Source: a virus. Taken from it: a DNA stretch of 33,727 bases. The translations under genes and the position numbers were made by a program. The stretch lies in IMG/VR virus record IMGVR_UViG_3300042922_000649, positions 1-33,727 of that record. One strand, given 5' to 3'. Within the stretch, counting starts at the first letter, position 1. Each line of letters starts with the position of its first letter. The notes below the pieces were generated by a model that saw only the letters and a program-made list of their open reading frames with translations, was not told the DNA's origin and searched no databases. This document shows positions 7,617 to 12,406 of the stretch, in pieces.

Positions 7617-8819
7617 ATGAAAATGTATACTTATCAAATAAAATCCGGTCCCAATGCAGGTAGGTGGGCCGGATATCTTTTACTGAAAGGTGAAAACGAT
7701 CAAAAAGACTTAAAACTGACCAAGTATGGGAAAACTGAAAAGGAAGTCATAAGAAAACTTTCCGACTTGGAGAGAGATATCGAAAATGGTGATTACGTCC
7801 CACGTAATACCGATACTTTTATAGGATTCTTAAAAGAATATCACAAAATCTGTGCCGGTTATGATATATGGAATGGAAAACCTAGAAAAAACGAAAGAGC
7901 AAAATGGCAAGAAACAACATCAGAGCTTTATAAATTATATATTGATGTTCATTTTGAAAAGTATTTTAATACAATGAAATTAAATGAAGTGAAACCAATA
8001 ACTCTCGACAAGTTTTATAATGAGAAATTAGCTGAAACGAAAGAAATATATAAGATAATTGATGGAATCAGGCAAAAAGTAGAAGTTCACAAAATGTCTA
8101 TTAATACAGCTATAAAGTTAAATAAATTTTTAAAAGCTGCTTTTAATTATGCTGTTGATAACAGAATGTTAAAACAAAACCCAGCAGATAAGGTTATTTT
8201 AGGTAAGAAAATTAAATATGAACCCGTGATATATGATAATGAGCAATTTAAAAAACTACTAGACTATACCAAGCATAAATATGATAGAATACCGATAGTA
8301 TTAGGTGCCGGCATGGGATTCAGAAGAGGAGAAATTTTCGGTCTTACATGGAGTGATATTGACTTTGAGAAACAGACAATTTCTATAAACAAGACCAATG
8401 TAAGGTTTAATAAAAATCTTATAAAGTCACCCAAAAATGCAACTAGCAACCGCATTATCACAGGGCCATCATATGTTTTTAAAACACTCAGAGAATACAA
8501 AGAAGAAACGAAACCGGTTAATGATAATTGCTTTATCCTGGATGTATCTCCGTCATATTACTCTCATAGATTTAATTGGCTATTAGCTAAATTTGATATA
8601 CCTTCCATTAGATTGCATGATCTGAGACACTTCAATGCAGTTGTTATGATGAATAGTAATATACCTGACAAAGTTGCTGCCGAAAGATTAGGTCATTCTA
8701 CTGTTACAACATTAAGATCGACTTACCAACACGTAATAGCTGAAATGGACCAGCGAGCAGCCGATAGAATAAATGATATATTTGAACCTAAACAGCAAGA
8801 AACAGAGGAACAAGATTGA
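7617..8819 (+). CDS. int: Tyrosine-family site-specific integrase
   Basis: The 400-residue protein has an N-terminal arm-binding region (1-65, YTYQIKSGPNAGRWAGYLLL). A SAM-like core-binding domain covers about 66-195, and a catalytic domain about 205-380. Visible active-site residues are R236 (GFRRGE), K270 or K273 (KSPKN), H334 and R337 (HDLRH), H360 (LGHS) and Y370 (TYQH). All are present, so it should be active. AAAGGAG precedes ATG 7617. The gene points at the tRNA-like attachment core only 45 bases beyond its stop, the usual int-attP arrangement. A hairpin overlaps its stop codon. Confidence 0.95.
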   Translation: MKMYTYQIKSGPNAGRWAGYLLLKGENDQKDLKLTKYGKTEKEVIRKLSDLERDIENGDYVPRNTDTFIGFLKEYHKICAGYDIWNGKPRKNERAKWQETTSELYKLYIDVHFEKYFNTMKLNEVKPITLDKFYNEKLAETKEIYKIIDGIRQKVEVHKMSINTAIKLNKFLKAAFNYAVDNRMLKQNPADKVILGKKIKYEPVIYDNEQFKKLLDYTKHKYDRIPIVLGAGMGFRRGEIFGLTWSDIDFEKQTISINKTNVRFNKNLIKSPKNATSNRIITGPSYVFKTLREYKEETKPVNDNCFILDVSPSYYSHRFNWLLAKFDIPSIRLHDLRHFNAVVMMNSNIPDKVAAERLGHSTVTTLRSTYQHVIAEMDQRAADRINDIFEPKQQETEEQD

Positions 8820-8828
8820 CCTCTGTTT
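8800..8828 (+). terminator. Hairpin over the integrase stop codon
   Basis: Bases 8800-8808 (AAACAGAGG) pair perfectly with 8820-8828 across an 11-base loop that contains the stop codon. A T-rich stretch follows after about seven bases (8836-8840). It probably ends the repressor-integrase transcript before attP. Confidence 0.55.
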
Positions 8829-8846
8829 ACTATACTTTTTACTATA
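8826..8846. repeat. Two TTTACTATA boxes left of the attachment core
   Basis: TTTACTATA occurs at 8826-8834 and 8838-8846, twelve bases apart. The same TTACTATA word recurs three times on the other side of the core (9044-9078). The positions suggest integrase arm-type binding sites. Confidence 0.5.
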
Positions 8847-8862
8847 TTTTGTTTTTCATTAC

Positions 8863-8945
8863 TGCAGTCGACGGGACTTGAACCCGTACGAGCGCAATGC
8901 TCACTAGATCCTTAGTCTAGCAAATTGCCTATAGCGCAACCATTG
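8863..8945 (-). other. Phage attachment site carrying the 3' part of a tRNA-Leu gene
   Basis: Read on the minus strand, this contains an anticodon arm with stem CTAGA/TCTAG and loop CTAAGGA (anticodon AAG, leucine). A long class II variable arm (GAGC/GCTC) follows, then a T arm (ACGGG TTCAAGT CCCGT), the acceptor 3' strand CGACTGC and a discriminator A at 8863. The matching acceptor 5' strand GCAGTCG and a proper D arm are absent, so it is not a complete tRNA. Tyrosine integrases often carry the tRNA 3' end in attP to restore the host gene after insertion. The shared core is probably 8863 to about 8930. Confidence 0.75.
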
Positions 8946-9042
8946 TATTTACTGGATTTAATGATTTTAACAGCATTATCCATGTATGTATATTACAATA
9001 TTGTGCGCTATTCGCAACTGCTATATTGTATCTTACAGGGTA

Positions 9043-10058: not shown

Positions 10059-10090
10059 GAAATAAATTAAAACATTCAGGAGGAATGAAT

Positions 10091-10510
10091 ATGAAAAAGG
10101 TGTTATGCCTGTTATTAGCAGTTGTAATTATTTTTTCTGTTGGACAAAAAGTACAAGCTGCTGATACAAATACAGTCTCCCAAGCAAGCGTAAATAAGAT
10201 TAAAAATGAAATGATAGAAAAAGCTGAAAGCATGAAGGATTATGATTTTTCAGCAATAAAAACAAGTACATCAATTGATTCTGATGTAATAAAGGTTAAA
10301 GTTAAAAATACTAGTACTTATGATGCATACTCAATACCTGTCAATATAGCATTATACAAAAATGGTAAGAATCTTGATACCACATCTTATTTTATTCAAG
10401 TGAAGGCCGGAAGAACAGTTACAATTGAACTGGATTTCCCTTACGCGGATAATACAATTGTGAAACCTGATGATTGTAAGGTGTATATTAACTACATTGC
10501 TATTTATTAA
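10091..10510 (+). CDS. Secreted protein with signal peptide
   Basis: I chose ATG 10091, which has AGGAGG seven bases upstream; the ATG at 10085 touches the ribosome site. The 139-residue protein starts MKKVLCLLLAVVIIFSVGQ with a typical Sec signal and a probable cut after VQA (residue 23). There is no lipobox. The mature part is about 116 residues. Its second half (VIKVKVKNTSTYDAYSIPVN, then YFIQVKAGRTVTIELDF) looks like an Ig-like beta sandwich similar to FxLYD domains. It has its own promoter and lies among lysogeny accessory genes. A cell-surface role in the lysogen (such as superinfection exclusion) is possible but unproven. Confidence 0.7.
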   Translation: MKKVLCLLLAVVIIFSVGQKVQAADTNTVSQASVNKIKNEMIEKAESMKDYDFSAIKTSTSIDSDVIKVKVKNTSTYDAYSIPVNIALYKNGKNLDTTSYFIQVKAGRTVTIELDFPYADNTIVKPDDCKVYINYIAIY

Positions 10511-10540
10511 TTGACATTAATAATCCATTCATGCTATTCT
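10511..10540 (+). promoter_or_regulatory. Second rightward promoter, start of a candidate small RNA
   Basis: TTGACA at 10511-10516, directly after the secreted-protein stop codon, is followed after 18 bases by TATTCT (10535-10540) with an extended -10 TG at 10532-10533. Its first 11 bases repeat the start of the previous promoter. Confidence 0.5.
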
Positions 10541-10546
10541 ACAAAT

Positions 10547-10616
10547 ATCTAGAGCAGAAGTGATAGAGAAGCAATACCATCCCTTTCCCCCGGTACGTGA
10601 GCCGGGGGATTTTTCT
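10547..10616 (+). ncRNA. Candidate small RNA of about 70 nt
   Basis: A promoter at 10511-10540 and a strong terminator hairpin, CCCCCGG (10587-10593) with CCGGGGG (10602-10608) followed by TTTTT, define a short unit with no convincing reading frame. The body is purine-rich at first and then C-rich. The same hairpin could simply end the secreted-protein mRNA, making this a 3' UTR. It converges on the HEPN Abi gene, ending 63 bases from it. Its existence as a separate transcript is inferred only from these signals. Confidence 0.4.
10587..10615 (+). terminator. Strong rightward terminator
   Basis: A seven-pair GC stem, CCCCCGG/CCGGGGG, with an eight-base loop is followed by TTTTTC. It terminates the secreted-protein gene and/or the candidate small RNA. 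Confidence 0.85.
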
Positions 10617-10634
10617 ATTGTAATATTTGGACAT

Positions 10635-10665
10635 AAAAAATAGGGGCAAGTGGTTGGCTCGCCCC
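10635..10665 (-). terminator. Leftward terminator of the Abi gene
   Basis: On the minus strand GGGGCGAG pairs with CTTGCCCC (8 pairs, one G-U) around a seven-base loop and is followed by TATTTTTT. It lies 14 bases after the Abi stop codon. Confidence 0.85.
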
Positions 10666-10678
10666 GTACAAAAATCAT

Positions 10679-11641
10679 TTATTGATTTTTTAACTTCGTA
10701 ATGTTAGTATATTCGTTAATTTTCATATTGTCAACGATTAATTTGCAAAAATTATAACTATTTTTAACGATATCGTTGTCTTTATAATAAGCAGAATTTT
10801 TTAACATTCTTTGATTTAATAGTTCATCCAGTTCAGCATATCTGCTCTTTTTAACCCCTAAACTATCAACTATATAATTAAAAAAATACAATAACGAAAT
10901 AAAGTCACAAATAAAAAAGTTTTTCAATCTAACCTTACGTTGGTTCTTGCTGATTTTGTCTATATTTTGCACATACTGGCTAATCGTAGATTTTGCAATG
11001 CTTATATCACTCTTTTGATACAAATTATTTATCAGGCAATTGTTATGAGCGGCTGCATTTCTCAAACTTCGCACCTGGAACAATAAATCGCAATACTGAA
11101 ATTCTCCAGGATATAAGTCTATGCAAAAAAATTTATAGAATTTACATAAGTCGCCAAACGATATAACTTCAAAAAATACCCATAATGGATACTGATTATT
11201 ATACTTTTTGATTAGATCCTTGCAATAATCACTTGAGCTATGTATGCTAATACTATTTTGAATAATCTTTTTAGTATCTTTTTCGTCTAGAAATTTTTTT
11301 ACAATACCATATCCGTCTTCATCTGACTTTAAAGAAATAAAATTCAACATTTTTGTTTTTATTGAATGTTCAATATCAAGACACATTTTAAGTATAAGAT
11401 GCCTTAGATACATGTCAATTCTAGATAAGTCTTGTAAATAAGCAAACTCAAGAGACTGATAGAATTGTTTACCGTTTTCATCGATATACTTGAGATAGTT
11501 TTTTCGATATGATGTTAATTTCATATAGTAGTTATTAGATTCCATAAATTTTGATGCATTTACTTCATCCACTATATTAAATTCTATACCGTTATTTTTC
11601 ATTATATCTATTAGTTCTTGAGTGCTTTTAAGAGTTTTCAA
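10679..11641 (-). CDS. AbiF/AbiD-like abortive infection protein (Abi_2, HEPN)
   Basis: The 320-residue protein fits the Abi_2 family. An N-terminal STQELIDIMKNNGI and YYMKLTSYRKNYLKY come first, then DLSRIDMYLRHLILKMCLDI. YPLWVFFEVISFGDLCKFY follows (about 151-169), then VRSLRNAAAHNNCLI with the HEPN RNase motif R194-N-A-A-A-H199. HEPN proteins of this kind are growth-arresting RNases. AbiF relatives are reported to pair with a noncoding RNA antitoxin and to be ancestors of Cas13. The start is TTG 11641 with AAGAGGTG upstream. It forms its own unit with a terminator, between the endolysin and attP, so it probably protects the lysogen from other phages. Whether it is AbiF or AbiD proper cannot be decided by eye. 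Confidence 0.82.
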   Translation of the reverse strand: MKTLKSTQELIDIMKNNGIEFNIVDEVNASKFMESNNYYMKLTSYRKNYLKYIDENGKQFYQSLEFAYLQDLSRIDMYLRHLILKMCLDIEHSIKTKMLNFISLKSDEDGYGIVKKFLDEKDTKKIIQNSISIHSSSDYCKDLIKKYNNQYPLWVFFEVISFGDLCKFYKFFCIDLYPGEFQYCDLLFQVRSLRNAAAHNNCLINNLYQKSDISIAKSTISQYVQNIDKISKNQRKVRLKNFFICDFISLLYFFNYIVDSLGVKKSRYAELDELLNQRMLKNSAYYKDNDIVKNSYNFCKLIVDNMKINEYTNITKLKNQ

Positions 11642-11687
11642 GGCACACCTCTTTTTATCTTATAGTAATTATATCCTATAACATAAT

Positions 11688-11709
11688 ATTACATTTTGCA
11701 ACATGTAAT
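11688..11709. promoter_or_regulatory. Dyad and possible promoter upstream of the Abi gene
   Basis: ATTACAT (11688-11694) and ATGTAAT (11703-11709) form a perfect seven-base inverted repeat, with palindromic TTGCAA (11696-11701) in the loop. Reading leftward, TTGCAA followed after 17 bases by TAGGAT could be a weak promoter for the Abi gene. TATAAT also occurs nearby. The dyad may be an operator, or an RNA hairpin at the 5' end of the transcript. Confidence 0.4.
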
Positions 11710-11722
11710 TAACTGGGTTAGC

Positions 11723-12406
11723 CTATATGGTTGATAATGACTTTATTGTTCCAAGCCCAACATTGTAACCGGTAGTATTAATATAGCTGGTCCACCCTTT
11801 ATAATCTGCAAACAGCAGCACAGCTATACGGGTCTTAAAATCGAATATTCCCGTAACTGGTATAGTGTAACCTGTCTTAGCAGCGTTAAGCTTCTCCTGT
11901 AGCCATTTAATGTCCTTCACTGAGGACTTAGGTGTTATGATTGTAGTTGGTGTATACTCTCCATACCCTTTCAAAAATAACTCAGCTTCGGCTACTCTTC
12001 TCTTGATTAGTCCATTAATAACATTACCGCCAGACTTATTCCATACCGCAAACTGTGCAGCTGCTCCTATGTAATCTTTTGTATTAAGTTTCTTAAGCAG
12101 TGTACTACCTTTTAGCGCAGCCCCGCCACAGTTATAGCAAAAGGATACCAGGGCATCAAACATATTCTGTGTGATCTCAACCTGTACATAGTCATTAACA
12201 GGTTTCTCATACCGCTTTAAATCGTTTTTAAGCATGGCTTCTGCCTGTGCCTGTGTAATTGTCATATTAGCAGTAACATCGGCTCCATAGTGCCCATAAC
12301 CGATTGTATAGTACTGTTCTGTAGGCAATGCCTTATATGCAACCAGCCGGCAACCCTCAAACTGCTTTAAGAGAGTTATGCCGGCTGCAGAAGTTGTTTT
12401 ATTCAT
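11723..12406 (-). CDS. Endolysin: GH24 lysozyme with C-terminal binding-like domain
   Basis: The 227-residue protein begins with a GH24 (phage lysozyme) domain (about 5-145). It contains LLKQFEGCRLVAYKA with the catalytic E17, YYTIGYGHYGADV and FDALVSFCYNCGG. The E to T spacing is two residues longer than in T4-type enzymes and the usual Asp/Cys position is Ala26. The part after residue 158 (DIKWLQEKLNAAKTGY, TGIFDFKTRIAVLLF) resembles a peptidoglycan-binding repeat domain. No signal peptide is visible, so the holin must release it. It overlaps the holin gene by eight bases. Confidence 0.9.
   Translation of the reverse strand: MNKTTSAAGITLLKQFEGCRLVAYKALPTEQYYTIGYGHYGADVTANMTITQAQAEAMLKNDLKRYEKPVNDYVQVEITQNMFDALVSFCYNCGGAALKGSTLLKKLNTKDYIGAAAQFAVWNKSGGNVINGLIKRRVAEAELFLKGYGEYTPTTIITPKSSVKDIKWLQEKLNAAKTGYTIPVTGIFDFKTRIAVLLFADYKGWTSYINTTGYNVGLGTIKSLSTI

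Follow-up and report, generated by a model that had tools for sequence, protein, structure and literature searches.

A candidate RNA antitoxin with its own predicted promoter at the 3' end of a phage-borne Abi_2/HEPN toxin gene

Introduction

The guide RNAs of Cas13 are held to descend from AbiF-type RNA antitoxins. The AbiF protein of C. difficile is toxic and needs the R and H residues of its HEPN motif; it is neutralised in trans by an RNA that binds to it (PMC12373285). This RNA, RCd22 of prophage phi027/phiC2, lies upstream of abiF and contains two abiF motifs (RF03085), with toxin and RNA transcribed from one promoter and a terminator between them. Each PbAbiF monomer binds a single RNA (reviewed in PMC12737573). 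AbiD1 of Lactococcus lactis, also of the Abi_2 superfamily, is tightly controlled and toxic (PMC2661086). In the type III systems ToxIN, CptIN and TenpIN, a ribonuclease toxin is paired with a tandem-repeat RNA antitoxin encoded upstream of the toxin, with a single promoter and a terminator between the two (PMC5086642).

Here we describe an Abi_2 gene in a viral DNA of 33,727 nucleotides, referred to below as the window. The original prediction proposed an AbiF-type toxin whose RNA partner would be either a convergent promoter-to-terminator unit beyond the 3' end of the gene or the short toxin leader. We found that a partner candidate does exist at this locus, but that it is neither of these RNAs; it is instead a 3' RNA at 10699-10635 on the minus strand.

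Results

The Toxin Gene Encodes an Abi_2 Protein with the PbAbiF Fold

The 320-residue protein is a member of Pfam Abi_2 (PF07751), as had been proposed, with an E-value of 3.9e-24 and 86.4 bits against a curated cut-off of 25.6, and also belongs to the phage family phrog_2158, 'abortive infection resistance protein'. The claim of an intact HEPN motif (R-N-x3-H) was likewise confirmed, since R194, N195 and H199 were invariant among 65 homologues. An AlphaFold2 model based on 63 sequences was confident (mean pLDDT 93.5, pTM 0.90), and its sole significant fold match in the PDB was 8vz6, the PbAbiF dimer with its noncoding RNA (E 2.4e-4, TM 0.58/0.61, 17% identity). A search of the viral fold library gave no match, and the best PDB match to a Cas13 fold reached only E 5.7. 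No CRISPR array was seen at the locus, which holds one RNA unit without a repeat array.

The phage lysozyme and holin genes lie immediately upstream of the gene, in agreement with the proposed prophage accessory position; a location by the lysis genes has been noted before for prophage abiF genes (PMC12373285). A tyrosine integrase gene (7617-8947 of the window) adjoins a tRNA-Leu gene, which is likely the prophage attachment site.

Table 1. Features of the Abi_2 locus, in window coordinates
Feature	Position	Strand	Remarks
Abi_2/HEPN toxin gene	10679-11641	minus	320 aa; TTG start; RNAAAH at residues 194-199
Ribosome-binding site of toxin gene, AGAGGTG	11646-11652	minus	from sequence
Predicted two-hairpin noncoding RNA, ~65 nt, candidate RNA antitoxin	10635-10699	minus	covariance model, covariation, fold
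Stem 1	10670-10690	minus	10690-10683 pairs with 10677-10670; toxin stop UAA (10681-10679) in loop
Stem 2, G+C-rich	10643-10665	minus	10665-10658 pairs with 10650-10643
UAUUUUUU after stem 2	10642-10635	minus	intrinsic terminator with stem 2
-35 box of RNA promoter, TTGACA	10729-10734	minus	in frame in toxin C-terminal codons (V-D-N)
-10 box of RNA promoter, TATACT	10706-10711	minus	17-nt spacer
Convergent promoter-to-terminator unit	10511-10616	plus	goes with ORF 10085-10510, not with abi; also in L011
ATTACAT/ATGTAAT dyad (7 bp) in toxin leader	11688-11709		conserved only to a 96%-identical relative

The Protein Belongs to a Separate Branch of the Abi_2 Superfamily

A maximum-likelihood tree of 120 Abi_2 proteins placed the window protein in a clade of 115. 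With support of 100/100 and by a long branch, this clade is set apart from the AbiF proteins of pNP40 and phage phiC2 and from further Abi_2 proteins with high scores; the program warned of long branches, which leaves the details of the tree unsure. The PADLOC AbiD profile gave 87 bits for the window protein, against 316 and 213 bits in the comparison with AbiF of pNP40 and C. difficile, and the protein did not cluster with these. A structural comparison placing the protein outside the AbiF branch had been named as a refuting outcome, and this holds in part: its fold matches PbAbiF, but the protein branches apart.

Among the loci of the window branch, the 40 nearest lacked the abiF motif RF03085 at its curated cut-off. 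Rfam scans of the window at the gathering cut-off, and of 10400-11900 at E-values up to 10, returned weak sub-cut-off matches only, none of them to RF03085. The motif was found upstream of genes of the other branch (phiC2, L152), and its matches in 16 host genomes were at other-branch genes or in unrelated places. By eye, the pNP40 abiF leader (L198, 18644-19800) contains an RF03085-like hairpin, CCCACGCCUCUG...GCGCAUC, where the Rfam scan itself gave no match. The 50-nt transcript before abiD1 (PMC2661086) may be an element of the same kind. What stands of the AbiF-type assignment is a HEPN protein of the AbiF superfamily with the PbAbiF fold, whereas the protein represents a separate branch and its locus has no RF03085 upstream.

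A Conserved, Predicted Two-Hairpin RNA Overlaps the 3' End of the Toxin Gene

The candidate RNA (Table 1) overlaps the 3' end and the stop codon of the toxin gene, and folds far better than shuffled sequences (z -4.6). Sequences behind the stop codon of homologues share the pattern (AUUGA)AAAA-stem-UUUU-GUA-GGGAGYGG-stem-CCRCUCC-(U)GAUUUUUU, in which conservation and covariation extend to stem 1, the GUA linker and the 5' lead. In a sequence-only MAFFT alignment of 17 sequences, 92.9% of the cells in the two helices pair and double changes occur in 11 of the 16 pairs; the covariation was 0.505, as compared with 0.255 after shuffling and at most 0.170 when the helices were slid. RNAalifold, unprompted, returned the same two helices. 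With 56 sequences, the covariation rose to 0.713 against 0.212 for shuffled sequences; A4 was fitted to the model structure. The RNA is a single two-hairpin unit without tandem repeats, it matched no Rfam family, and similarity to RF03085 was not detectable.

Two covariance models were used, R1 from the 17-sequence alignment and R2 from 56 sequences with the window left out. R2 found a sole match in the window, at 10699-10635 on the minus strand, with 48.0 bits and an E-value of 8.5e-8, covariance-model E-values being rough. Conserved RNA structure in the flanks of homologues, the absence of which the original prediction had named as refuting it, is present in the 3' flank. The terminator that it placed downstream of the gene is also there, but as part of this larger conserved RNA.

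A Predicted Promoter of the RNA Lies within the Last Codons of the Toxin Gene

We found a promoter of the form TTGACA-17-TATACT (10734-10706, minus) inside the abi coding sequence, matching 11 of the 12 consensus bases. A sigma-70-type promoter just before the 3' RNA was also seen across the branch, with at least 9 of 12 consensus bases in 79 of 82 loci and at least 10 of 12 in 71 of them, as compared with 1.3% of gene-body windows reaching at least 10 of 12. The -10 box mostly lies 4-6 nt before the RNA start in the 82 loci, and the -35 box falls in the toxin C-terminal motif (V/I)(V/I)D(N/S/K). Of 73 genes, 67 use GAC for the Asp that carries the -35 box, whereas GAC makes up 24% of the other Asp codons (Fisher p 2e-33, a nominal value because the genes are related). 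A synonymous change of GAC to GAT in this last Asp codon is predicted to weaken the antitoxin promoter while leaving the toxin unaltered. The regions upstream of the toxins carry weaker promoters (median 8.5/12), which fits an excess of RNA over toxin.

Distribution of the RNA Family

R1 gave 70 matches in 632 kb, of which 67 closely follow an abi stop codon and lie on the coding strand. Leaving aside the streptococcal subclade, the window branch has 113 loci; taking R1 and R2 together, we counted a 3' RNA directly 3' of the gene in about 100 of them, a count of related sequences rather than of independent tests. Several of the loci among the 113 that the models did not detect show the 3' RNA pattern by eye. 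We relied on covariance models because an automatic two-stem search of the flanks misassigned several loci to neighbouring terminators. At about 100 loci, annotation pipelines currently label the 3' RNA as a terminator or miss it.

When 16 whole genomes were searched with R2 at 40 bits or more, 11 of 12 matches lay directly 3' of an Abi_2 gene and one was solitary. Among 196 genomes of the class and 200 genomes of one family, the matches of at least 40 bits were either linked to abi (L158, L199, L202, L203, L162) or solitary (L204, L205). Matches below about 40 bits were usually A-rich terminators; L168, L169, L200 and L201 were judged to be of this kind and rejected as RNA copies. Since such terminators occur among the weaker genome matches, about 40 bits is a fair working limit, and the window RNA, at 48, is above it. 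An abi homologue on a Campylobacter fetus plasmid has a member of the family 90 nt past its stop codon (L209, 1797-1859; 31.7 bits), a sequence match that suggests spread between phyla.

In L204 (~1501-1570), L205, L206 and L032 (1090-1151), the 3' RNA occurs with no abi gene beside it. Promoter-like TTGAC..TAT(T/A)AT boxes are kept in three of these four, and the L204 copy still encodes a remnant of the abi C-terminus, IDSLAK-stop, a pattern that fits an RNA gene able to function alone. The solitary copies are perhaps solitary antitoxins.

In streptococcal and satellite-phage homologues (L005, L006, L008, L009, L119-L140), this 3' position is occupied by another structured element, GUGUAAGACUGAUU...AUGCGUGCGU.

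In the literature we found no description of a 3' RNA behind Abi genes; the AbiF RNA models of Zilberzwige-Tal et al. (mentioned in PMC12804078) stand outside this comparison. The family is apparently undescribed and not part of Rfam.

Other Roles for the 3' RNA and Other Candidate Partners

One possible explanation for these data is that the 3' RNA is a genuine small RNA with transcription of its own that acts in trans on phage or host mRNAs and does not bind the toxin. An independent promoter and solitary copies without the gene would suit such an RNA. However, it is strictly linked to this Abi_2 branch, the protein is structurally related to an RNA-bound antitoxin complex (8vz6), and pull-downs of RCd22 recovered AbiF as the main partner and mostly no mRNA binding (PMC12373285). 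Because the strict linkage and the structural relation favour a protein partner, we regard this explanation as unlikely.

It is less probable still that the conserved element is merely the abi transcription terminator or a 3' stabiliser of its mRNA. Stem 2 and the U-run do have the form of an ordinary intrinsic terminator, and weak model matches elsewhere are terminators, but this would leave unexplained the conservation and covariation of stem 1, linker and lead, the consensus promoter at a fixed distance in nearly all loci, the extreme GAC bias at the -35 box (67/73) and the retention of the promoter in solitary copies.

The plus-strand unit at 10511-10616 has the compact promoter-to-terminator look, free of a reading frame, that made it a candidate partner, and it exists as sequence. 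In L011, however, the same promoter/terminator unit stands between the 77%-identical neighbour of ORF 10085-10510 and unrelated genes further downstream, with no abi match in the 11.4 kb of this contig, which is a fragment. No counterpart of the unit was seen in the downstream flanks of the abi homologues. The unit accompanies the neighbouring ORF rather than abi and was rejected as the RNA partner, a role that we now strongly disfavour and consider hardly probable. Its terminator string also matched an unrelated contig (L012). The ORF ahead of it encodes a putatively secreted protein of 141 aa (10085-10616, plus, together with the unit), and the ends of the unit are conserved between related phages while its middle varies.

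The least probable reading, also strongly disfavoured, makes the leader with the ATTACAT dyad the partner, after the upstream RF03085-type RNAs of AbiF of C. difficile and pNP40; the dyad exists as sequence, but the leader is only 81 nt long, has no RF03085 match and folds slightly above shuffles, barely better than chance (z -1.86), while the dyad was confined, among 206 loci, to the window phage and its 96%-identical relative and no shared motif was seen by eye in the leaders of about 55 homologues, so that it was rejected.

Discussion

The gene, its fold, the RNA family, the promoter and their linkage, as computed here, are in our opinion likely to reflect a two-part toxin/RNA-antitoxin module that resembles type III systems by analogy but has the reversed gene order, pairing a HEPN ribonuclease of a distinct branch with an independently transcribed two-hairpin 3' RNA. 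The toxin would be a ribonuclease from a branch of its own within the Abi_2 (AbiF/AbiD) superfamily, and the antitoxin the ~65-nt RNA, transcribed from the toxin-gene strand by a strong sigma-A-type promoter of its own in the last codons of the toxin. Made in excess, the RNA would bind the toxin dimer and block its active site, as for RCd22 with AbiF and for PbAbiF with its RNA. If the supply of antitoxin failed, through phage takeover or loss of the prophage, the longer-lived toxin would be freed, cleave RNA and halt growth, so that competing phages would be excluded or the prophage stabilised. To judge from its relatives, the 3' RNA probably acts by binding and neutralising the toxin; neutralisation by binding is an analogy here, because the RNA has no detectable similarity to RF03085, lies on the opposite side of the gene from RCd22 and is without repeats.

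We also lean, with somewhat less assurance, towards extending this toxin/RNA-antitoxin module to the whole Abi_2 branch. The branch would then be a toxin/RNA-antitoxin lineage of inverted architecture, most of whose members reside in Bacillota phages and mobile elements while it extends to Campylobacter plasmids, with an apparently undescribed non-Rfam 3' RNA whose promoter lies in the C-terminal codons of the toxin and which could persist alone after toxin loss. If a sister branch indeed pairs with an RNA that is differently built and differently placed, it would offer a second, independent view of how HEPN proteins are paired with small RNAs.

Among the described systems, the AbiF-RCd22 pair of the C. 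difficile prophage phi027/phiC2 (PMC12373285) resembles the window in that a small structured RNA accompanies an Abi_2/HEPN gene of a prophage, located within the lysis module or beside it. The window differs in having a single two-hairpin RNA at the 3' end, an RNA promoter inside the toxin gene, and a protein of a separate branch. RF03085 abiF RNAs are, like the 3' RNA, small, structured and linked to Abi_2 genes, but they stand 5' of the genes of a different branch. PbAbiF with its noncoding RNA (8vz6) shares the fold and the HEPN motif with the window protein at 17% identity, a likeness known from the protein alone. AbiD1 (PMC2661086) belongs to the same superfamily, but the 50-nt transcript known for it stops at a terminator that precedes the gene, as in the AbiF type. 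The classical type III systems ToxIN, CptIN and TenpIN (PMC5086642) serve as a working model in that a ribonuclease toxin goes with an RNA antitoxin. The window locus shares with them a linked cognate RNA; it departs from their upstream, one-promoter order and their tandem repeats, with a non-repetitive RNA at the 3' end, an RNA promoter of its own and an unrelated toxin fold.
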